From Amycolatopsis bartoniae (lineage in GTDB: Bacteria > Actinomycetota > Actinomycetes > Mycobacteriales > Pseudonocardiaceae): a stretch of DNA of 64,000 nucleotides. The notes below the pieces were generated by a model. It was given only the letters and a program-made list of their open reading frames with translations, had not been told where the DNA came from and did not search any database. Where the stretch lies: assembly GCF_014191255.1 (NCBI RefSeq), contig NZ_JACHWH010000002.1, forward strand, positions 620,001 through 684,000. The letters run 5' to 3'. Both the position numbers and the translations under genes were made by a program. Shown piece after piece: positions 51,516 through 61,642 of the stretch; the stretch's first letter is position 1; every line of letters begins with the position of its first letter.

Positions 51516-51613
51516 GGGCTGCACGCGTGAGCCGTGGTCGGTTTGGGTGCGGACTTGACCGGGCGCTGGGCGCCCTCGTTCCGCCCGGCCACCCCCGCCC
51601 CTTTCCCCTGATC
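51516..51613. other. 98-bp spacer between DUF3072 gene and the repeat element
   Basis: G/C-rich DNA with a C-rich run near its end. I see no gene, hairpin or recognisable site in it. Together with the adjacent repeat it fills the convergent gap to mutM. Confidence 0.4.
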
Positions 51614-51781
51614 GTTTAACGGTTGGCTTGCCGCCTCAAGGGCGCCTTCGGCGTCGCTTCGCGATCGCTGCGCGACCCTTGACCCGGCAAGCCAACCGCT
51701 AATGCAGCTGGGGATCGGGGACGGGGGAGGTCCGGGCGTGTGCCGGGCCGCCTTTGCTGCCGGGTACCGTTTTGGTTGTGG
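51614..51781 (-). repeat. structured dispersed repeat, copy 1 (3' of mutM)
   Basis: On the mutM strand it starts right after the stop and runs about 168 bp: an unpaired part with ACCTCCCCCGTCCCCGAT, then ATTAGCGG, long arms CGGTTGGCTTGCCG/CGGCAAGCCAACCG and TCAAGGG/CCCTTGA, an inner variable hairpin TCGC-GCA-GCGA, GCGAAGCGACGCCGAAGGCG, and a closing CCGTTAAAC. A second copy lies after the monooxygenase gene at 61.4 kb. Both fill convergent gaps. It could be a bidirectional terminator, a REP-like element or an RNA. Confidence 0.8.
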
Positions 51782-52648
51782 TCAGGCCTTCGGCTGCCGT
51801 GGTTTCGGCTGGCATCTGGGGCAGTAGTACGAGGACCTGTTCATGAACGGTTCCCGTTTGATCGGGGTACCGCAGCGGCGGCAGGGGCGGTCTTCCTGGC
51901 CGTAGACGTTCAGGGACCTCTCGAAGTAGCCCGACTGGCCGTTGACGTTCACGTACAGCGCGTCGAACGAAGTGCCGCCCGCTTGGAGGGCCTCGCCCAT
52001 CACCTCCGTGGCCGCTTCCAGCAGCAGGGTGCCCTGTGCGTTGGTGAGCTTCTCCGTGGGGCGGGACCAGTGCAGGCGGGCGCGCCACAGTGCCTCGTCG
52101 GCGTAGATGTTGCCCACTCCGGAGACCAGGGTCTGGTCCAGCAGTGCCCGCTTGACCTCCGTGCGGCGGGAACGCAACGCCCGCACCGCCTGCTTCGGGT
52201 CGAACGCCGGGTCCATCGGGTCCCGCGCGATGTGTGCGATGGTCGCCGGGAGCAGCTCCGTGCCGGTGTCCACCAGGTCGGCGAGCGCGAGACCGCCGAA
52301 GGTGCGCTGGTCCACGAAACGCAGTTCCGGTCCCCCGTCGGCGAACCGGACCCGCACGCGCAGGTGCTTCTCGTCCGGGGCGCCCTCCGGCTGGACGAGC
52401 ATCTGCCCGCTCATCCCGAGGTGCGCGAGGATCGCCTCCTTGTCCGACAGCTCCAGCCAGAGGTACTTCCCCCGCCGCCGCACGGCGACGACCGTCGCAC
52501 CCGCCAGGCGGCCCGTGAAGTCCTCCGGCCCCAGCTCGTGCCGCCTGATCGCACGGGAGTGCAGGACCTCGACGTGCGCTATGACGCGCCCCGCCACATG
52601 CGCCTGCAACCCGGCGCGGACCACCTCTACCTCGGGAAGTTCCGGCAC
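51782..52648 (-). CDS. mutM: formamidopyrimidine-DNA glycosylase
   Basis: Bifunctional glycosylase/AP lyase removing 8-oxoguanine from DNA. The 288-residue protein starts [14 protein letters not shown] (Pro2 Schiff-base nucleophile, Glu3), has the K57-type [11 protein letters not shown] segment, [18 protein letters not shown] (helix-two-turn-helix) and a C-terminal zinc finger CRRCG...YYCPRCQ. In actinobacteria it usually directly follows rnc; here three unrelated genes lie between. Confidence 0.97.
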
Positions 52649-52700
52649 TCCCCCAGGTTACTGTCCGCGCTACGCTGTTCCGGACGAGGAGGTGGACGCG

Positions 52701-53273
52701 ATGAGCCTTGCCGCCGAACGCCTTGCCGGGTGGCCGGAACTGCTGCGCATGTGGCAGACACTCGACCTGCCCCACGGCTGGCGAGCCGAAATCACCGAGG
52801 GGGGCATCGCGGTAACACCATCACCGGACCACGACCACAAGGCGATAGCTCATCTCGTGCACAAGGCACTGATCAAGGGGATCCCCGACGAGTGGGCGGT
52901 GTACCAGACCCACGGCCTCCGGATCGCGGGCGCGCACAAGGTCTTCATCCCCGACCTGGTCGTCGCTCCCGAGGACGCGCCGGTCGAGGCGGACGACCGG
53001 CTCCTCCTCTCCACTCACGCGCTGCTGGTCGTGGAGATCACTTCGGCGAGCAACCCGCTCCCCGACCGCACGACGAAGAAGGACGCCTACGCCTCCGGCG
53101 GTGTCGGCATCTACGTGCTCATCGACCGTTGGCACGAGCCGAAGGCGCGGGTCACCGTCTTCTCCGATCCCGTCGACGGGGCCTACCAGCGCAGCACCAC
53201 AACGCCGTTCGGTGAGACCGTCGACCTTCCGGAGCCCATCGGGCTCGCGCTGGACACCGGGCGCTTCGGCTAG
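52701..53273 (+). CDS. Uma2-family (DUF820) putative endonuclease
   Basis: A 190-residue PD-(D/E)xK-like protein. The core is seen as GWRAEITEGGIAVTPSP (first acidic residue), VFIPDLVVAPED, LLVVEITSASNP and RTTKKDAYASGGVGIYVLID, the standard Uma2 order. AGGAGG lies 7 bp before the ATG. Such genes are numerous in actinobacteria; their biological role is unclear. It is inserted between mutM and rnc with the next two genes. Confidence 0.85.
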   Translation: MSLAAERLAGWPELLRMWQTLDLPHGWRAEITEGGIAVTPSPDHDHKAIAHLVHKALIKGIPDEWAVYQTHGLRIAGAHKVFIPDLVVAPEDAPVEADDRLLLSTHALLVVEITSASNPLPDRTTKKDAYASGGVGIYVLIDRWHEPKARVTVFSDPVDGAYQRSTTTPFGETVDLPEPIGLALDTGRFG

Positions 53274-53293
53274 TCCTGCTGGGGCCTCCGGGC

Positions 53294-54220
53294 TCAGACG
53301 GTGAGGACGAGCTTCCCCTGGAGGTGACCGGCGTCGAGCAGCCTGTGTGCGTCGGCGACCCGCTCGAACGGGAAGGTCTCCTGCACGTGCACCCGCAGCC
53401 TGCCCTGCTCGACGAGGTCGACCAGACCTCGCAGTGCGACCGGGTCCGGGTCGACCCCGATGCCGCTGAAGCGCAGGCCCGCCGCCTCGAACTTGGCGAT
53501 CAGGTCCGTGTCCTCGTCCGCCACCGCGGTCACCAGGTGGCCCCCTGGGCGGAGCACCCCGAGCGACCGCTCGGCGGTGTCCCCGCCGACGGTGTCGAGC
53601 ACGACGTCGACGTCGCGGACCACCTCGGCGAAGTCGGTCGTCGCGTAGTCGATCACTTCGTCGGCGCCGAACCGCTCGACGAACTCCCGCTTGCTCCCGC
53701 CGGCCGTGGTGGTCACGTGTGCGCCGAGGGCTTTCGCGATCTGGATCGCGACGTGGCCGACCCCGCCGCCACCGCCGTGGACCAGGACACGGTCGCCCGC
53801 GGTCACGCCGCCGAGGTCGACGAGGCCCTGCCACGCCGTCAGCCCGACCACCGGCAACGCCGCGGCTTCGACGTGCGGGAGCGACACCGGCTTGCGTACC
53901 AGGTGCAACGCCGGCGCGGCCACGAACTCGGCGTACGCGTTGGCGGCCCTGGGAAACCACGGCATTCCGAACACCTCGTCGCCGGGCCTGAACCGCCACG
54001 TCCGCGCCGCTTCGACCACTCCGCTGACGTCCCAGCCGAGGACGAACGGCGGCTGGCCGATCAGCGGGAACTCACCGGCGCGCAGCCGCGCCTCCAGCGG
54101 GTTCAGCCCGATCGCCTCGACGCGAACGAGGACCTCGGTCGGCAGGGGGCGAGGCTCGGGCGCGTCCACGATGGTGAGCACCTCGGGACCGCCGAGCACC
54201 TGCTGGGTGATGACTCGCAT
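53294..54220 (-). CDS. zinc-less alcohol dehydrogenase / quinone oxidoreductase (MDR)
   Basis: A 308-residue medium-chain reductase of the NADPH:quinone oxidoreductase branch: N-terminal VLVRVEAIGLNPLEARLRAG, GWDVSGVVE, then the Rossmann motif VLVHGGGGGVGHVAIQIAKALGAHV. The zinc ligands of true alcohol dehydrogenases are absent. It is divergent from the HxlR-type gene, which probably controls it in response to quinones or aldehydes. Confidence 0.88.
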   Translation of the reverse strand: MRVITQQVLGGPEVLTIVDAPEPRPLPTEVLVRVEAIGLNPLEARLRAGEFPLIGQPPFVLGWDVSGVVEAARTWRFRPGDEVFGMPWFPRAANAYAEFVAAPALHLVRKPVSLPHVEAAALPVVGLTAWQGLVDLGGVTAGDRVLVHGGGGGVGHVAIQIAKALGAHVTTTAGGSKREFVERFGADEVIDYATTDFAEVVRDVDVVLDTVGGDTAERSLGVLRPGGHLVTAVADEDTDLIAKFEAAGLRFSGIGVDPDPVALRGLVDLVEQGRLRVHVQETFPFERVADAHRLLDAGHLQGKLVLTV

Positions 54221-54256
54221 GACTCTCCTAGCTCTGGGGGAACAAACCCCACGCTA

Positions 54257-54284
54257 GGTTTCCGATGGGAACCGGCAGGTACCT
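54257..54284. promoter_or_regulatory. candidate HxlR operators in the divergent gap
   Basis: GGTTTCC-GAT-GGGAACC (54257-54273, one mismatch) and the palindrome AGGTACCT (54277-54284) lie in the 72-bp gap, 36-8 bp before the HxlR ATG. GGTAC-like motifs are common in sites of HxlR-class regulators, so repression of both genes from here is plausible. Confidence 0.4.
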
Positions 54285-54292
54285 TTGGCGCC

Positions 54293-54673
54293 ATGAGCGG
54301 TTTCGGTCCCGGTGAGTTCTTCCTCGCCGACTGCCCGGCACGGCTGGCGGTCGAGCTGATCGCCGACAAGTGGACGGTGGTCGTGCTCGCCGGACTCAGC
54401 AAGGGCCCGGTGCGCCACGGCGAACTGGTCGAGCTGATCGGCGGCATCTCCCGCAAGGTGCTCACCCAGACGCTCCGCCGGCTGGAGGCACACGGACTTG
54501 TCCGCCGCCACGCGTACGCCGAGGTGCCGCCCCGCGTCGAGTACGAGCTCACCCCGCTCGGGGCGACGCTGACCGATCCGATCCACACACTGACCGAGTG
54601 GGCGAAGGCGAACGGCGACGCTGTCCTCGCCGCGCTCGACGCCAATTCCGAGCCACTCGCCCAGCACGGCTGA
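54293..54673 (+). CDS. HxlR-family transcriptional regulator
   Basis: A 126-residue winged-HTH protein: DCPARLAVELIADKWTVVVLAGL contains the near-N-terminal Cys that many family members use for redox or electrophile sensing, then GPVRHGELVELIGGISRKVLTQTLRRLE, the recognition helix, and VPPRVEYELTPLG, the wing. ATG at MSGFGPGE. The open frame upstream continues but has no coding support. It probably regulates the adjacent divergent oxidoreductase. Confidence 0.9.
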   Translation: MSGFGPGEFFLADCPARLAVELIADKWTVVVLAGLSKGPVRHGELVELIGGISRKVLTQTLRRLEAHGLVRRHAYAEVPPRVEYELTPLGATLTDPIHTLTEWAKANGDAVLAALDANSEPLAQHG

Positions 54674-54682
54674 GCCCGCGCG

Positions 54683-55420
54683 CTAGTCCTGCTGGGGCTT
54701 GAGCTCTTCGTTCAGCGCGCGCCACGCGGTTTCGGCGGCCTTCTGCTCCGCTTCCTTCTTCGTGGTGCCCTCGCCGTGGCCGAGGTCGCGGCCGGCGATC
54801 AGCACCGTGGCGCTGAACTCCTTGCGGTGGTCCGGGCCGGTGTCCTCCACCTTGTACTCCGGCACACCCAGCCCCGCCGACGCGGTCAGCTCCTGCAGGC
54901 TCGTCTTCCAGTCCAGCCCGGCCCCACGCAGCGGCGCCTCCGCCAGCAGCGGGTCGAACAGGCGGTGGACCAGGGTGCGCCCCGCGTCGATCCCGTGCGC
55001 CAGGTACACCGCACCGATGATCGCTTCGAGGCCGTCCGCCAGGATGCTCGCCTTGTCCCTGCCGCCGGTGAGCTCCTCGCCCTTGCCCAGCAGCAGGTGC
55101 GCGCCCAGCCCGCCCTCGCCGAGGCCGCGCGCGACCCCCGCCAGTGCGTGCATGTTCACCACGCTGGCCCGCAGCTTCGCGAGCTGCCCCTCGGGCAGGT
55201 CGGGGTGCGTGCGGTACAGGTGGTCGGTGACGACGAGCCCGAGCACGGCGTCACCCAGGAACTCCAACCGCTCGTTGGGCGGCAGCCCACCGTTCTCGTA
55301 GGCGTAAGAACGGTGGGTCAGCGCAAGATGAAGCAGCTCGGCGTCGAGGTCGACGCCGAGCGCTTCGAGCAGTGATGCTGGGTCGGCAGCCGGTCCTCCC
55401 GGCTTCGACTTACCCCCCAT
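54683..55420 (-). CDS. rnc: ribonuclease III
   Basis: Double-stranded RNA endonuclease for rRNA and mRNA processing. The 245-residue protein has the signature [30 protein letters not shown] and a C-terminal dsRBD ([38 protein letters not shown]). ATG at MGGKSKPGG. It lies 11 bp downstream of rpmF. Confidence 0.97.
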
Positions 55421-55431
55421 CAGCGTCAGCC

Positions 55432-55614
55432 TCAGGCGGGCTCGACGACCTGCCGACCGTCGTACTGGCCGCAGGTCGGGCAGGCCACGTGCTGCGGCTT
55501 CGGCTGCCGGCAGGCGCGGTTCTGGCAGGGCACCAGCTGCACCGGGGCCGCTTTCCACGACGACCGGCGGGTGCGCGTGTTGGCTCGCGACATCTTCCGC
55601 TTCGGGACGGCCAC
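55432..55614 (-). CDS. rpmF: 50S ribosomal protein L32
   Basis: A 60-residue ribosomal protein: [20 protein letters not shown] is the invariant start, and [20 protein letters not shown] retains four cysteines (Cys-containing, zinc-binding C+ form). It sits in the conserved DUF177-rpmF-rnc order. Confidence 0.98.
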
Positions 55615-55686
55615 GACTACATCTCCTCGTTCAAGGTTCGCTCGCTGACGCGAGCCTGCTTTCCACTGCCCACGAGCTGGTGCTCG

Positions 55687-56274
55687 TCAAGCTTCCTGGT
55701 CGGGGCCACCCGCCGGAGAATCACCAAGACGCTCGACCAGCGCGGCCCACCGAGGGTCTATCGTCTCATGCCCGTGTCCGGGCTCGAGATCGGCCCACTT
55801 CCTGCCGCACTCCTGGCACAGCCCCGGGCAGTCCTCGCTGCACAGCGGCACCTGCGGCAGGGCCAGCACGAGCGCGTCCCGCACGATCGGTTCAAGGTCG
55901 AGCCGGTCGTCGACCAGCCTGCTGACCTCGTCCTCGTCGGTGGTGACGTCGGTGGTGGACCCTGGGTAGGCGAACAGCTCGGTGAGCTCGATCTCGACCT
56001 CGTCCTCGATGGGGTCGAGGCAGCGCGAGCACTCGCCGGTGGTCCGCGCCGTGGCGGTGCCGGTGACCAGCACACCCTCCACGACGGACTCCAGCAGCAG
56101 GTCGAGGTCGATCTCGGAACCCTCCGGCACGACGATGACGTCGGGCACGCCCAGCACGGTGCTCACCGGGACGGTCCGCCGGAGGGTACGGCTCAGCCCG
56201 GCACGGCGCCCCAGCTCCCGGGTGTCGACCACCCAGGGGTTGCGCGTGTCGAGGAAAGTCTTGTCGTCAGACAT
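55687..56274 (-). CDS. DUF177 (YceD) family protein
   Basis: A 195-residue conserved protein found next to rpmF in most bacteria and implicated in 23S rRNA accumulation in E. coli and plants. It shows GTATARTTGECSRCLDPIEDEVEIELTELF (CxxC-type motif) and LCSEDCPGLCQECG near the C-terminus with four Cys. It lies 72 bp upstream of rpmF. Confidence 0.92.
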   Translation of the reverse strand: MSDDKTFLDTRNPWVVDTRELGRRAGLSRTLRRTVPVSTVLGVPDVIVVPEGSEIDLDLLLESVVEGVLVTGTATARTTGECSRCLDPIEDEVEIELTELFAYPGSTTDVTTDEDEVSRLVDDRLDLEPIVRDALVLALPQVPLCSEDCPGLCQECGRKWADLEPGHGHETIDPRWAALVERLGDSPAGGPDQEA

Positions 56275-56328
56275 GTGAGTGCACTCGGATCATCGGTGAG
56301 GTGGGCAACCCCACCAGGGTACCGGCCC

Positions 56329-57048
56329 TCAGGGCTGGAAGTCGTACAGCGGGGTGCGTGAGCTCATGCCCGGCGGCGTCCGCAGGTGGTTGCGGCCCGA
56401 GTCGACCGTGCGCAGGGTGGTGGACAGCAGCTCGGAGAACTCGGCGAGCTTGCCGTCCACATACGCGTCGCAGTCCGCGCGCTGGCGGTCGGCCTCGGCG
56501 TGCGCCTCGTCCACGATGCGGGCGGACTCGGCGTGTGCGGCCTGCACGACCTCGGTTTGCGAGACCAGCCGTGCCTGCTCGTGGCGGCCGTCCTCGATCG
56601 CGCGCTCGTAACCGGCGCGCCCGGCCTCGATCATCCGCTCCGACTCGGCGCGCGAGCGCTCCACGAGGTTCTGGTACTCGGCCTGGCCCGCGGCGATCAT
56701 GCGCTCGGCCTCGGCGTGTGCGTCGGCCATGATCTGCTCGGCACGCGCCCTGGCGTCCTCCAGCATCCGCTGGGCCTCTTCGGTGGCCTCGGTCAGCGTG
56801 GTGTCGGCCTCGGCGCGGGCGCCGTTGACCATGGCGTCGGACTCGGCGCGGGCCTTGTCGATCAGCTCGTCCCGCTTGTCGAGCACGTCCTGCGCGTCGT
56901 CGACCTCCTGCGGGAGGGCGTCGCGCACGTCGTCGAGGAGCTCCAGCACGTCCCCGCGCGGCACCACGCAGCTCGACGTCATCGGCACCCCGCGTGCCTC
57001 TTCCACGATCGTGACGAGCTCGTCGAGAGCCTCGAACACCCGGTACAC
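56329..57048 (-). CDS. sepIVA: SepIVA-like DivIVA-domain cell-division protein
   Basis: A 239-residue coiled-coil protein. The start VYRVFEALDELVTIVEEARGVPMTSSCVVPR closely resembles mycobacterial SepIVA (Rv2927c), which is needed for septation. The rest is a long Ala/Glu/Arg coiled coil rich in AEADR and ARAEAERMI heptads, ending RTPPGMSSRTPLYDFQP. GTG start is chosen at this conserved N-terminus. It lies between coaD and DUF177 as in mycobacteria. Confidence 0.9.
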   Translation of the reverse strand: MYRVFEALDELVTIVEEARGVPMTSSCVVPRGDVLELLDDVRDALPQEVDDAQDVLDKRDELIDKARAESDAMVNGARAEADTTLTEATEEAQRMLEDARARAEQIMADAHAEAERMIAAGQAEYQNLVERSRAESERMIEAGRAGYERAIEDGRHEQARLVSQTEVVQAAHAESARIVDEAHAEADRQRADCDAYVDGKLAEFSELLSTTLRTVDSGRNHLRTPPGMSSRTPLYDFQP

Positions 57049-57134
57049 GGCAACTCCTTGGCTGGCCCTTCGCGCTGGCTCGTTCCAGTTTGCCGGGTCG
57101 GGACGGAAAGGCCGGGGAGGTTGGGCCCCGCGTG

Positions 57135-57617
57135 TCAAGAGCGTTCGGCCAGCTTCGCCGTCAGCCGCTCGAACACCACGCCCGGCACGAGGTTCTTCAC
57201 GTCCCCGCCGTACGTCGCGACCTCCTTGACCAGCGAGCTGGACACGAAGCCGTACCGCGGGTTGTTCGACATCAGCAGGGTCTCGACACCGGACAGCTCA
57301 CGGTTCATCTGCGCCATCTGCAGCTCGTAGTCGAAGTCGCTGACCGAGCGCAGGCCCTTGGCGATCGCGGCGATGCCGTGCTGCCTGCAGTAGTCCACGA
57401 GCAGGCCGTGCCACGAGTCCACGCGCACGTTGGGCAGTGCGTCGGTGATCTCGGTGATCATCGCGAGCCGTTCGTCGATCGAGAACAGGCCCTTCTTGTT
57501 CTTGTTGATCATCACGGCCACCACGACCTCGTCGAAGAGCTTGCTAGCCCGTTCGATGACGTCCAGATGCCCGTTCGTCACGGGGTCGTAGGAACCGGGG
57601 CAGACCGCACGCACCAT
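57135..57617 (-). CDS. coaD: phosphopantetheine adenylyltransferase
   Basis: Penultimate step of coenzyme A synthesis. The 160-residue protein shows CPGSYDPVTNGHLDVI (HxGH-type motif with H17), NKNKKGLFSIDERLAMI, AKGLRSVSDFDYELQMAQMN and the SSSLVKEVATYGGDV end. Its neighbour upstream is rsmD (21 bp), the usual order. Confidence 0.97.
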   Translation of the reverse strand: MVRAVCPGSYDPVTNGHLDVIERASKLFDEVVVAVMINKNKKGLFSIDERLAMITEITDALPNVRVDSWHGLLVDYCRQHGIAAIAKGLRSVSDFDYELQMAQMNRELSGVETLLMSNNPRYGFVSSSLVKEVATYGGDVKNLVPGVVFERLTAKLAERS

Positions 57618-57638
57618 GGCGCGGACGTTACCCGGTGA

Positions 57639-58211
57639 TCACGGCTCGTGGCGCGGCGAAGTGACGTACTCCGCCCAGTACAGCGCCGTGTCGCCGTGCC
57701 GCATCGCCCGGACCGGCGCGAATCCCGCGGGCCAGTCCGGTTCGCCGTCGCGCTGCGCCCGCTCGACGACCACCAAACCGTCTTCGGCGAGCCAGCCGCC
57801 CGCCGCGAGCGCGGTCAACATCACAGCGAGCCGGGCCGCGTCGACCGCGTACGGCGGATCGGCCAGCACCAGGTCGAACGGCTTCTCGGCGGGCTGGGCC
57901 AGCACGGCCTCCACCTGCCCGGCCCGCACCACGCCGCCCAGCGCGAGTTCCGCCACATTCCCCCGCAGCACCTGCACCGCCCGCCGGTCGGACTCGACGA
58001 ACACCGCGTCGGCGGCGCCGCGCGAGAGCGCCTCCAGCCCCAGCGCACCGGATCCGGCGTAGAGGTCCAGCACCCGCGCGCCGTCGAGCTCACCGGCCGC
58101 CTGCAGCGCGTTGAACAGGGATTCCCGGACCCGTTCCGAGGTCGGCCGCGTGCCCTGGGGCGGCACCTTGAGCCGCCTGCCTCCCGCCCGTCCGGCGACG
58201 ATCCTGGTCAC
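57639..58211 (-). CDS. rsmD: 16S rRNA (guanine966-N2)-methyltransferase
   Basis: Methylates G966 of 16S rRNA with SAM. The 190-residue protein has TRIVAGRAGGRRLKVPP and RPTSERVRESLFNAL at the N-terminus, the SAM loop VLDLYAGSGALGLEALSRGA and the catalytic DPPY tetrad in LVLADPPYAVD. GTG start at (M)TRIVAGR. A much longer frame continues upstream but is antisense to the helicase and is not coding. Confidence 0.95.
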   Translation of the reverse strand: MTRIVAGRAGGRRLKVPPQGTRPTSERVRESLFNALQAAGELDGARVLDLYAGSGALGLEALSRGAADAVFVESDRRAVQVLRGNVAELALGGVVRAGQVEAVLAQPAEKPFDLVLADPPYAVDAARLAVMLTALAAGGWLAEDGLVVVERAQRDGEPDWPAGFAPVRAMRHGDTALYWAEYVTSPRHEP

Positions 58212-58319
58212 CGGCCCATCTTCGCAGCCGTGATTTTGTCGCCGGGACTTGGTGAAGGGTTCGGGCGGCACGCGTAGAGTCGTTCTTCCTGTTGCGGGAG
58301 TGAGTCGTAGGAGCGCTGC

Positions 58320-60443
58320 GTGTCGGAACCTCGGGTCAGACGGGCCGAGATCGCCATCGAGCAAGAGCACGTCGATCGCGTTTACCGCCGACTCGCCGAG
58401 CTGCGGGCCCAGGCGGAGGCCATGCGCGCCAAGGGCTACGAGATCGGGCACGGCGCGCAGCGCGAGGCGGTGTTCGAGCAGGCGTCGATGCTGTTCGAGC
58501 GGGACATGATGGTGTTCCACGCCAACCAGACCCTGCAGACGCTCGACGCCGAGTACGAGGGTCTCGTGTTCGGCCGGCTGGACCAGACCAGCCGCGAGAA
58601 GATCTACGTCGGCCGCCTGGGCATCCGCGACGCCGAGTTCGACAACCTCGTCACCGACTGGCGCGCGCCCGCCGCTGCCGCGTTCTACCAGGCCACCGCC
58701 GAGGAGCCGATGGACGTGGTGCGCCGCCGCGTCATCCGCTGCTCCGGGCAGAACGTGCTGGACGTGGACGACGACGTGCTGATCCCGGACGCCGTGCCCG
58801 AGGACATGCAGGTGGTGGGCGAGGGCGCGCTGATGGCCGCCCTGGGGCGGTCGCGCGGGGAGAAGATGCGCGACATCGTCGCCACGATCCAGCGCGAGCA
58901 GGACGAGGTCATCCGCGCGCCGTGGCGTGGCGTCACCGAGATCACCGGCGGGCCGGGCACCGGCAAGACGGCCGTCGCGCTGCACCGCGCCGCGTACCTG
59001 CTGTACCGCCACCGCCGCCAGCTGGGTGGTGCGGGCGTGTTCGTGCTGGGTCCGTCCGGTGTGTTCACCAACTACATCTCGCGCGTGCTGCCGTCGATGG
59101 GCGAGACGAACGTGGAGCTGCGGGCGCTGGGCGAGGTGCTCGACGGCGTGGTCGCGACGCGCCAGGACTCCGCGCCGCTCGCGGCGATCAAGGGTTCGCT
59201 GCGGATGCGCAAGGTGCTGACGAGGGCGATGCGGGACACGCCGCCGGACGTGCCGGACGAGCTGCGGATCGTCTACCGCGGCGAGGTGCTCCGGTTGCGG
59301 GGCAAGGAGCTGGAGAAGGTGCGCCGCAAGGTGCACGGCCACGGCGGGCCGCCGAACCGGTCCCGCGTGCGGGCGGCGGAGACGCTGCTGGAGGCGCTGG
59401 CGGACAAGGCCGAGGAGAACGCGAAGGCCGACGGACGCAGCGTCGAACGGGCGGAGCTGATCACCGAGCTGGGTGAGCGGATCGACTTCCACCGGTTCCT
59501 CGTCGTGTGGTGGCCGGTGCTGTACCCGGGCGAGATCCTGCGCTGGCTGGGCGATCCGGCGCGGCTCACGCGGGCGGGCAAGGGCGTGCTCAGCCGCGAC
59601 GAGGTCGACCTGCTGGCGGCGTCGTTCGCCGACCGCGAGCGGGAGTGGTCGGTCGCGGACGTGGCGTTGCTGGACGAGCTGCGGGTACTGGTGGGCCAGC
59701 CGCCGAAGCGGCGCCGCCGGGTGCAGTCGGTGGAGCTGGACGCGGCGCCGGCCGCGCGCGGCAGCGAGGGTCAGGGCCCGCACCGGCCCGAGCACTACGA
59801 CGAGTACTCGCACATCGTGGTGGACGAGTCGCAGGACCTGTCGCCCATGCAGTGGCGGATGATCGGGCGGCGCGGGAAGTACGCGAGCTGGACGGTCGTC
59901 GGCGACCCGGTGCAGAGCTCGTGGCCCGATCCGGAGGAGGCCGCGCAGGCACGGGACCAGGCGTTCGGCCTGCGTACCGCGCGGCGCCGGTACACGCTGC
60001 GGACGAACTACCGGAACTCGAAGGAGATCTTCGACCTGGCCGCGAAGGTCGTGGCCGGGCACGCCGAGGCGGGTGAGCTGCCGGAGGCGGTGCGCACGAC
60101 GGGCCTGGAGCCGGACGTGCGGATCGTCGAGCAGGCGGGTGTCGAGAGTGCGACGGAGGCCGCGGCGAAGGAGCTGCTGGACGCGGTCGAGGGCACGGTC
60201 GGTGTCATCTGCGCGATGGACCGGGTGCCGCAGGTGCGAGGCTGGTTGCAGGGGCAGGCGGACGAGCGGTTGAAGGTCGTCGGCAGTCTGGACTCGAAGG
60301 GACTGGAGTACGACGCGGTGGTGCTCGTGGAGCCCACGGAGCTGATCACGGAGTCGACCACGGGACGGCGGGTGCTGTACGTCGCGCTCACCCGTGCCAC
60401 GCAGCAGCTGACGGTGGTGGCCACCGACCGGGAATGGCTGTGA
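58320..60443 (+). CDS. HelD-like superfamily 1 helicase (RNA polymerase-associated)
   Basis: A 707-residue UvrD/Rep-type ATPase. The N-terminal arm is a coiled coil (~8-60, [21 protein letters not shown]). Walker A is [12 protein letters not shown] (~209-220), Walker [20 protein letters not shown], then TNYRNSKEI and the motif VI region [13 protein letters not shown]. This layout matches HelD of actinobacteria, which removes stalled RNA polymerase and can give rifamycin tolerance. GTG start with AGGAG upstream. It overlaps the next gene by 10 bp. Confidence 0.88.
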
Positions 60444-61402
60444 CGCTGTCAGTGCTGGACCTGGCACCGATCCCGGACGGTGGTGACGCTGGCACGGCGT
60501 TGCGGAACAGCCTGGATCTGGCCCGGCGGGTCGAGCAGCTGGGGTACCACCGGTACTGGGTGGCGGAGCACCACAACATGCCGGGCGTGGCCAGCGCCGC
60601 GACGGCCGTACTGGTGGCGCACCTCGCGCAGGTGACGACCGGCCTGCGGGTGGGTTCGGGCGGGATCATGCTGCCGAACCACGCGCCGCTCGTGGTGGCC
60701 GAGCAGTTCGGCACGCTGGAGGCCCTGCATCCCGGCCGGATCGATCTGGGGATAGGCCGAGCGCCAGGCACGGACGGCACAACGGCCGCGGCGCTGCGGG
60801 GCGCGCGGAACGTGGCGGACTTCCCGCAGCAGCTGGCTGAGCTGCTGACGTACTTCGAGCCGGACGAGACGCGCACGGTGCACGCCATCCCCGCGATCGG
60901 CCACAAACCCCCGGTGTGGCTGCTGGGTTCGAGCGGCTTCAGCGCGAAGCTGGCGGGAGAGCTGGGACTGCCGTTCGCGTTCGCCCACCACATCAGCGCG
61001 AGGAACACCCTGCCAGCGGTGCGGGTGTACCGGGAGTCGTTCCGCCCGTCCGAGGCGCTGCGGGAGCCGTACCTGATGCTGAGCGTGGCCGTGGTCTGCG
61101 CGGAAACGCAGGAGCGAGCCGACTGGCTGGCGGGCCCGGCGGAGCTCCGTTTCCTGAGCAGACACCACGGCCACCCGATCAAGCTCCCGACCCCGGAGAC
61201 CGCAGCGTCCTACGACTACACCGATGAGGATCGGCAAGTGCTGCAGCGAAAGTTCGGCAGCCACCTGATCGGCACCCCGGAAACGGTGCACAAAGGCCTG
61301 AACGCCCTGGCCCAGGACACGGGCGCGAACGAACTGATGCTCACCACAATGACGCACAACCACAAAGACCGAGTGCGCTCGTACGAACTACTGGCCACAT
61401 AA
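60434..61402 (+). CDS. LLM-class flavin-dependent oxidoreductase
   Basis: A 322-residue bacterial-luciferase-like monooxygenase: [65 protein letters not shown] and [12 protein letters not shown] are diagnostic of the MsnO8/YhbW-like subgroup. Substrate unknown. It overlaps helD by 10 bp and is followed at once by the second copy of the structured repeat. Confidence 0.9.
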
Positions 61403-61572
61403 ACAAAACCGGACACCCGGCAACGAAACCCAGCCCGGCACCCGCCCAGACCTCCCCCGTCCCCGATACAAAGCCGTCATTAGCGGTCGACGCGCCGTGT
61501 CAAGGGTGAGGCGAAGCCTCATCGCGAAGCGACGCCGAAGGCGCCCTTGACGCGGCGTGCCGACCGTTAAAC
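61403..61572 (+). repeat. structured dispersed repeat, copy 2 (3' of the monooxygenase gene)
   Basis: Homologous along its length to copy 1 when both are read in the sense of the preceding gene. Shared blocks are ACCTCCCCCGTCCCCGAT, CATTAGCGGT, TCAAGGGT, ATCGCGAAGCGACGCCGAAG, GCGCCCTTGA and ACCGTTAAAC. The inner hairpin differs in sequence but not in pairing (GAGGC-GAA-GCCTC here). The outer arms GGTCGACGCGCCG and CGGCGTGCCGACC differ from copy 1 yet still pair. It starts directly after the stop. Confidence 0.8.
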
Positions 61573-61604
61573 ACTCAAAAATCGGGGCGCCCACGCAACC
61601 ACAG

Positions 61605-61642
61605 TTCACGCGCGCAGCGCGGCTTCACGCGCGCAGCGCGGC
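61605..61642. repeat. perfect 19-bp tandem duplication
   Basis: TTCACGCGCGCAGCGCGGC occurs twice head to tail (61605-61623, 61624-61642), ending 6 bp before the cfa stop codon on the opposite strand. Each unit contains CGCGC-GCA-GCGCG, a small hairpin. Confidence 0.85.

Follow-up and report, generated by a model that had tools for sequence, protein, structure and literature searches.

REP, BIME and REPIN sequences, which go together with TnpA-REP (RAYT), are high-copy intergenic palindromes near gene ends with scattered solo copies, and in these respects the repeat described here is like them. REPs are 20-40 bp long (PMC3733652); the cloverleaf core of the present repeat differs in measuring ~95-100 nt and carrying three hairpins. 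REPs are targets of IS110-type elements (PMC2817692, PMC3116915, PMC1525189), as the cloverleaf is. REP13E12 has been described as a repetitive element (PMC10589994), and mycobacterial DUF222 repeat regions are said in a recent paper to lack a defined biological function (PMC13061034).

The cloverleaf repeat in the window and beyond

The window, the whole 64,000-nucleotide stretch that was analysed, contains two copies of the element. A sequence-only reading had placed them in the gaps behind two genes, which it named mutM and an LLM monooxygenase gene; both copies are found at those coordinates and on those strands, and they align over their length. Copy 1 lies on the minus strand. Its C-rich outer arm (51710-51781), defined by alignment of the copies of the genome, begins at the stop codon of the minus-strand gene next to it, whose call ends at 51782. 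The cloverleaf core follows (51614-51709), with an outer stem, a TCAAGGG/CCCTTGA stem and three hairpins; it matches the covariance model over its full length with 111.2 bits and folds at -60.1 kcal/mol (z -7.74). Past TTAAAC, a G-rich outer arm with the GGGCGCCCAGCGCCC hairpin extends over 51540-51613, its outer limit being approximate and taken from the aligned right sides of subfamily 2. Copy 2 is on the plus strand. Its C-rich arm (61403-61472, from the alignment) begins at the stop codon of a plus-strand gene called at 60440-61402, and its core (61473-61572) also gives a full-length model match, with 103.5 bits and a fold of -64.5 kcal/mol (z -8.66). In its second outer arm (61573-61606), ATCGGGG pairs back to CCCCGAT; here the approximate outer limit comes from the right sides of subfamily 1. 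For neither core was the fold energy reached by any of 200 shuffles.

The inner hairpins were confirmed as TCGC-GCA-GCGA in copy 1 and GAGGC-GAA-GCCTC in copy 2. The element had also been taken to end at CCGTTAAAC, and this does not hold: in a wider alignment a further arm extends past it, for ~35 nt in copy 2 and ~75 nt in copy 1. The pattern GTCAAGGG-N20..50-CCCTTGA occurs in the window only at these two places (0.01 expected from shuffles), giving three matches as copy 2 is matched on both strands. The earlier impression that no named family fits agrees with Rfam, of which no family scores above its gathering cut-off in the window; on two loci, only miRNA models came up, far below their cut-off. 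Membership in a known RNA family was rejected on this ground.

Two copies proved too low a count. By blastn, 49 matches reduce to 40 places once seven inverted self-matches and two pieces beside listed copies are removed, so that the genome holds at least 40 copies, a lower bound with 40 of 91 first-look candidates scored. The covariance model search that the sequence-only reading had proposed recovers 35 of these 40 places and one weak extra place. Across 61 genomes, the window's included, 30 contain a match. In the common architecture, three small hairpins are closed by a ~20-bp stem, and longer pairing arms surround this core; subfamilies are species-specific. Some orthologous gaps lack the element or keep the arms and no core. 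Other loci, one of them marked by a metallophosphoesterase neighbour, are inherited vertically, with pairing kept at two of them, and not all copies are therefore recent insertions.

Six copies of the genome are interrupted by IS110-type genes. Five of these insertions share a single site within the hairpin 3 loop, one base shorter at locus L032, and the sixth involves another element at another place in the repeat. IS110 was rejected as the driver, as its elements interrupt the repeat. A survey of neighbouring genes, covering the 14 largest clusters of flanking proteins, gave no other candidate driver in Amycolatopsis: conserved loci and common families aside, only IS110 genes recur beside the copies of this genome. 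The Y1 (HUH) transposase family PF01797 had no match in six genomes, the window's among them (controls match in 5/14), and RAYT/REP membership was rejected on the basis of these six.

Outside chromosomes, the cloverleaf is present on 23 actinobacterial plasmid records, in convergent, divergent and co-directional contexts; one copy precedes an ssb gene, another a gene of the ArdC family. In the ten annotated plasmid records inspected, no DUF222 gene is annotated nearby. Phage records gave no match. The motif is present in one IMG/VR contig.

Pairing, strand asymmetry and gene context

The compensatory changes read from two copies are borne out by the family. The test used alignment A4, which draws on 93 chosen sources and had been fitted to the model. 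Its pair cells hold pairing bases in 96.5% of cases, and compensatory change is seen at 20 of the 32 pairs; the best of 200 shuffles comes to 79.3%, and pairing with slid partners does not exceed 42%. Since many of the copies are matched on either strand, a single row was retained for each locus, apart from three loci where a second place was admitted; this left 96 of the 141 rows, or 91 unique sequences. A first, unfitted alignment already had compensatory change in 12 of 32 pairs. The sequences of hairpins 2 and 3 are conserved across genera.

The hairpin-2/3 motif selected 84 rows, 79 of them unique, and left 57 aside; in the selected rows we counted 140 G·T pairs against 9 A·C. This excess points to a single strand as the one that folds, as judged from the aligned sequences. 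Such a strand-specific signal, which bears on the suggested 3' UTR-derived RNA, fits RNA and single-stranded DNA equally.

All 34 uninterrupted copies of the genome fall between genes called with our own script, the six IS110-interrupted copies being left out of this count. Gap orientation, which had been put forward as a check, favours convergent gaps: they hold 23 of the 34 copies and make up 9 of the 58 gaps in the window. In four other genomes, 12/19, 11/12, 6/11 and 2/4 of the fetched copies, contig-edge loci aside, lie in convergent gaps. Of the three guesses first offered, a new actinobacterial REP-like element is the closest and is partly supported. The structured repeat with compensatory changes, its preference for convergent gaps and the lack of an Rfam match stand; the partner found elsewhere is DUF222/HNH and not a Y1 transposase.

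DUF222-HNH genes beside the cloverleaf

In other actinobacteria, the cloverleaf adjoins DUF222 genes with HNH nuclease motifs (the '13E12' family). Genome G024, of a genus in the same family as the window's genome, has 30 cloverleafs, and 24 of them have a DUF222 gene no farther than 1.5 kb away; in the Herbihabitans genome G026 this is true of 22 of 24. The adjacency expected by chance is ~2.3-2.6% per cloverleaf in these two genomes. Among 114 cloverleaf places found by pattern, 33 adjoin DUF222 and 80 gave no DUF222 with an Actinomadura query, which misses distant members. All 79 DUF222-adjacent cloverleafs follow the orientation of inverted terminal repeats, with up to five Herbihabitans places counted twice, some pattern-found places there being the same as, or near copies of, those of G026. 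Where a cloverleaf lies upstream, it and the DUF222 gene are always on opposite strands; downstream inverted copies also occur.

The elements are best delimited in G024. One DUF222 class has a cloverleaf at 13 of 14 fetched loci, and two cloverleafs at ten. These ten form blocks of ~1.63 kb with a cloverleaf at both ends and unrelated flanks, and the block ends fall within a few tens of nucleotides of the same places. At the junctions of ten G024 loci we found no consistent direct repeat, exact boundary or target-site duplication. Herbihabitans elements have the palindrome at the 5' end only; it spans ~140 nt and is common to two DUF222 classes at ~91% identity. Some actinobacteria are rich in DUF222-HNH proteins, with 45 matches listed for each of G024 and G026; a cloverleaf accompanies 14 and 22 of these listed matches, respectively. 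Other G024 classes have it at none of six loci. A fold-energy scan for other end palindromes at cloverleaf-less DUF222 genes did not discriminate, and the predicted structure of a DUF222 protein is a poor model (mean pLDDT 43).

Within Amycolatopsis, DUF222 occurs in 5 of 19 genomes. The window's genome has no match to PF02720 (DUF222), and neither have G006, G007 and G008, which hold many copies of the element. In G004, G012 and G016, there are 8, 34 and 15 DUF222 matches and 0, 1 and 2 cloverleaf model matches. In another Amycolatopsis genome, G009, an Amycolatopsis-type palindrome stands just upstream of a DUF222-HNH gene.

Interpretation and relation to known systems

On balance, we lean towards the element being a mobile palindromic repeat, whose cloverleaf, when folded, would serve as the structure recognised at the ends of small DUF222-HNH ('13E12 family') mobile elements. 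The size of the family, the covariation, the strand asymmetry, the constant arrangement at DUF222 genes, the unrelated flanks of the G024 blocks and the empty orthologous gaps speak for it. Against it stand the lack of DUF222 in this genome and in three copy-rich relatives, the Amycolatopsis genomes with many DUF222 matches and few or no cloverleafs, the many DUF222 loci, pattern-found places and plasmid records where only one of the two is seen, the 5'-only palindromes of Herbihabitans, the vertically inherited loci and the junctions that gave no insertion footprint. The fuller form, in Herbihabitans, Actinomadura, Labedaea and G024, would be a nuclease gene bounded, on one side or on both, by cloverleafs in inverted orientation. 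The copies in the window would then be solo and REP-like, related to such ends, and some may have found a second use in blocking transcription. The Amycolatopsis copies would be non-autonomous, REP- or MITE-like, and would owe their spread to a partner that has since been lost or that acted in trans. In such a mechanism one strand would become single or extrude and fold into the stem with three hairpins; the DUF222-HNH nuclease may bind and cut the folded strand, and repair or strand transfer could copy the element into gaps behind stop codons. There it would be tolerated and sometimes kept, possibly as a barrier between convergent genes.

The same location invites another explanation, in which the element is primarily a bidirectional terminator or 3' UTR structure between convergent genes, selected and passively duplicated, with a secondary link to DUF222. 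The convergent bias in this genome and four others, the very stable hairpins and the pairing kept at two vertically inherited loci are consistent with it, as are five element-less orthologous gaps that, by eye, hold a simple inverted repeat. A separate hairpin-plus-T terminator between stop codon and element precedes just one of 28 copies behind a plus-strand gene. Under a loose criterion (5 T in 8 nt), a T-rich stretch follows the stem on the minus strand in 10 of 34 copies, which speaks for this explanation. We still judge it unlikely: on the plus strand the count is 0 of 34, and at one locus, in this genome and (by eye) three relatives, a canonical terminator already precedes the element. 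Moreover, the sequence conservation, including that of hairpins 2 and 3 across genera, far exceeds the needs of a terminator, the orientation at DUF222 genes is fixed, and REPs favour convergent gaps too. Bidirectional termination may be a secondary role.

Strand-specific pairing would also suit a single-strand priming site or promoter (like sso/ssi or Frpo) carried by plasmids, integrative and DUF222 elements and scattered in chromosomes. The plasmid copies, those upstream of ssb and ArdC-family genes included, speak for it, together with the constant strand of upstream copies at DUF222 genes and a NUDIX gene and a further gene family common to several pattern-found loci, which we take to be integrative-element genes. 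Given the downstream inverted copies, the mixed plasmid contexts and the high copy number in chromosomal convergent gaps, we hold it to be improbable. We give equally little credence to a MITE or other passenger of an ordinary transposase or RAYT system; the many copies with their pairing arms, the subfamilies particular to a species and the orthologous gaps that are empty speak for it, but the six genomes lack a Y1 transposase, the one class covered by that search, and the IS110-type genes found in six copies have inserted themselves into the repeat.

The DUF222-linked reading is our preferred one, and it suggests a kind of mobile DNA that we did not find described: in a literature search covering few subscription journals, no report of palindromes at DUF222 genes or REP13E12 ends came up. 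A bolder form of it, to which we give somewhat less than even chances, is that a new class of bacterial mobile elements, with strand-specific cloverleaf ends, has DUF222-HNH genes as its catalytic component and solo cloverleafs as its non-autonomous members; this class would be REP-like, the HUH transposase being replaced by an HNH nuclease. If true, it would place a second type of enzyme behind high-copy palindromic repeats in bacteria. The defined DNA structure at the ends of some DUF222 genes is a testable substrate and suggests self-mobilisation, and an actinobacterial palindrome serves as a target for IS110-type elements.

The IS110-family elements, with their RNA-chosen targets, are guests in the cloverleaf repeat and not part of it. 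MITEs are likewise short, non-coding and repeated, with pairing arms; the cloverleaf differs from them in its internal covarying fold, and searches for Y1 and DUF222 found no parent in the window's genome. REP13E12 or 13E12 repeats belong to the same Pfam family, DUF222, as the cloverleaf-linked genes; they differ in being absent from the window's genome. In the RAYT arrangement, a nuclease/transposase gene beside inverted palindromes resembles the fuller form of the cloverleaf element. The partners differ: a Y1 transposase for RAYT, and DUF222/HNH for the cloverleaf.

Anatomy and folding of the element

The element lies in two convergent gaps of the window, on the minus strand at about 51540-51781 (behind the gene read as mutM) and on the plus strand at about 61403-61606 (behind that read as an LLM monooxygenase). 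The sequence-only reading had noticed a structured element in both gaps, and this observation holds; the end that it placed at TTAAAC was set too short, as the outer arms run on past the core. In both copies the core, a cloverleaf of about 95-100 nt, has three small hairpins closed by two stems, the outer one and a conserved TCAAGGG/CCCTTGA stem. The sequence of hairpin 1 varies, but its pairing is kept in the forms seen (GAGGC-GAA-GCCTC, CGC-GCA-GCG, GGC-GAA-GCC and GAGC-TT-GCTC); hairpin 2 (TCGC-GNA-GCGA) and hairpin 3 (CGCC-GNA-GGCG) are nearly invariant. C-rich and G-rich outer arms, of two subfamilies, flank the core on either side.

The covariation first proposed from these two copies is borne out in a larger set, 96 sequences (91 unique) kept from 141 aligned matches, one per locus plus a few second places. 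Among the unique sequences, 20 of the 32 pairs show compensatory changes and 96.5% of pair cells hold standard pairs, against at most 79.3% in 200 column shuffles and at most 42% with slid partners, in an alignment that was fitted to the model and is thus biased in favour of pairing. The first MAFFT alignment, of 32 A. bartoniae copies, already contained compensatory change at 12 of 32 pairs. Across 24 stem pairs of 79 unique sequences, G·T cells outnumber A·C cells 140 to 9 (28 to 1 in A. bartoniae), with orientation fixed by the hairpin-2/3 motif alone and cells that are non-independent, the copies being related. Since selection on the duplex only would predict the two about equal, the folding form seems to be one defined strand, either RNA or single-stranded DNA. 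Judged by these substitutions, selection acts on the folded structure of one strand.

Copies, spread and genomic position

Further copies abound. Blastn gives 49 matches in the A. bartoniae genome, at no fewer than 40 places; a covariance model, R1, recovers 35 of these 40 and one weak extra place, the five that it misses being interrupted copies. Relatives carry the element too: R1 matches in 30 of 61 genomes, A. bartoniae counted. The distribution is uneven, with 7 of 18 congeners lacking a match at E <= 0.001; in two of these seven (G003 and G011) one orthologous gap nevertheless contains a variant, simple-loop or truncated, so R1 undercounts. A strict pattern scan, one genome per species, found at least 106 stretches; among the matches listed, 79 of 80 are actinobacterial and one is titled Acidobacteria MAG.

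At four loci of other Amycolatopsis genomes (L091, L156, L162, L167) a simple loop replaces the three hairpins, e.g. TCAAGG..TTTCCCG..CCTTGA. Cloverleaf-like matches, all with query coverage below 80%, occur on 23 actinobacterial plasmid records; the 11 contexts inspected (L396-L406) are mixed, one match lying 5' of ssb and one 5' of an ArdC-family gene. The hairpin-2/3 pattern also occurs on one IMG/VR contig of 35.8 kb (L275).

By gene calls from our own codon-usage script, the 34 uninterrupted A. bartoniae copies lie in 23 convergent, five ++, five -- and one -+ gaps, against a window baseline of 9 convergent gaps in 58. Among fetched copies elsewhere, edges excluded, convergent placement is found for 12/19 in Amycolatopsis sp. 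GM8 (G007), 11/12 in A. sacchari (G008), 6/11 in A. arida (G027) and 2/4 in genome G015; the comparison figure for loci found by motif scan of other genomes is 108 convergent gaps in 562. Many convergent gaps (e.g. L009, L012 and L023 in A. bartoniae; also L161, L165, L166, L167) contain, to the element's right, a second, distinct repeat, AAAGATCAA(A)AG..., whose arms are GAGTTGGGTGGTCATCCCGTCGCC / GGCGACGGGATGACCACCCAACTC; it is found without the element too. Four motifs of this repeat, searched in the window, had no match.

Orthologous gaps record both presence and absence. At that of copy 1, the stop codons abut in genome G006 (TGATCA), and A. sacchari has the outer arms with the cloverleaf missing; at that of copy 2, the projected gap in G011 measures about 11 nt; further ones contain variants whose loop is simple or whose stem is shortened. 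At two loci the copies are mutually closest across species, one gap being common to two species and the other, a metallophosphoesterase gap (named by eye), to four; at two other loci each species' copy is nearest to that species' own other copies. This mixed kinship reflects old vertical retention together with repeated insertion or gene conversion.

Secondarily, the element may act as a barrier between convergent genes. None of 34 copies has a T-rich stretch 3' of the stem on the plus strand, which speaks against a terminator; on the minus strand a lenient criterion (5 T in 8 nt) finds one in 10 of 34. Of the 28 copies that follow a plus-strand gene, just one is preceded by a separate hairpin-plus-T terminator, and five element-free orthologous gaps contain a simple inverted repeat (by eye).

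Association with DUF222-HNH genes

The first clue to an associated gene came from the motif scan, in inverted cloverleaf pairs of Actinomadura, mostly about 2.3 kb apart, around a common gene encoding Pfam DUF222 followed by HNH-like motifs; a relative in one Amycolatopsis (G009) scores for Pfam HNH as well, and has an Amycolatopsis-type palindrome 5' of the gene. In clustering of flanking proteins the DUF222 family ranks first, with 20 loci, and a second DUF222 cluster has 6. In G024, a genome of another genus in the taxonomic family of A. bartoniae, 24 of 30 cloverleafs have DUF222 no more than 1.5 kb away, as do 22 of 24 in Herbihabitans rhizosphaerae (G026); chance proximity in these two genomes is about 2.3-2.6% per cloverleaf. 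For pattern-found places the count is 33 of 114 (80 without a tblastn match, one far). The orientation is the same in 79 of 79 cases, at most five Herbihabitans places being entered twice: an upstream cloverleaf is on the strand opposite to the DUF222 gene, a downstream one on the same strand.

For one DUF222 class of G024, a cloverleaf is present at 13 of 14 fetched loci, 10 of which carry two. Their homologous block of about 1.63 kb has boundaries within a few tens of nucleotides of the same places, with unrelated flanks beyond, and each end is a palindrome of about 190 nt whose anatomy matches the window element. In Herbihabitans, a 5' palindrome is common to two DUF222 classes. At three of three loci of another G024 class (L364, L365, L366) the strongest fold lies at about -111 to -118 relative to the gene, by a scan that did not discriminate. 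Ten cloverleaf loci (L189, L202, L209, L216, L221, L262, L264, L267, L179, L079) have in common a NUDIX gene, a second gene family or both, and presumably resemble actinomycete integrative elements.

The link is class-specific, as many DUF222 genes lack a cloverleaf and some cloverleaf-rich genomes lack DUF222. Among the DUF222 matches listed, 14 of 45 in G024 and 22 of 45 in Herbihabitans have a cloverleaf, and other G024 classes have none at 6 loci; G004, G012 and G016 possess DUF222 genes with 0, 1 and 2 cloverleafs, respectively. Searches of G006, G007 and G008 found no DUF222, yet many cloverleafs, and that of the A. bartoniae genome gave zero matches; we infer that its copies descended from, or were mobilised by, a DUF222 element.

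A REP-like reading and its IS110 guests

IS110-type genes interrupt 6 of the 40 A. bartoniae copies. In five (L028, L029, L030, L032, L034) the guest occupies the identical spot in the hairpin-3 loop, one base shorter in L032; L040 contains a different IS110-type element at another place in the repeat. Pfam was run on the L030 and L040 proteins, and the other guests were assigned by clustering with these two.

Our searches of the open-access literature gave no description of a REP-like palindrome with a DUF222-HNH element. The best reading is a REP-like mobile palindrome with a DUF222-HNH element as its probable autonomous form, by a mechanism that is inferred. In published accounts, REPs are reported as IS targets and IS110 targets as RNA-guided.
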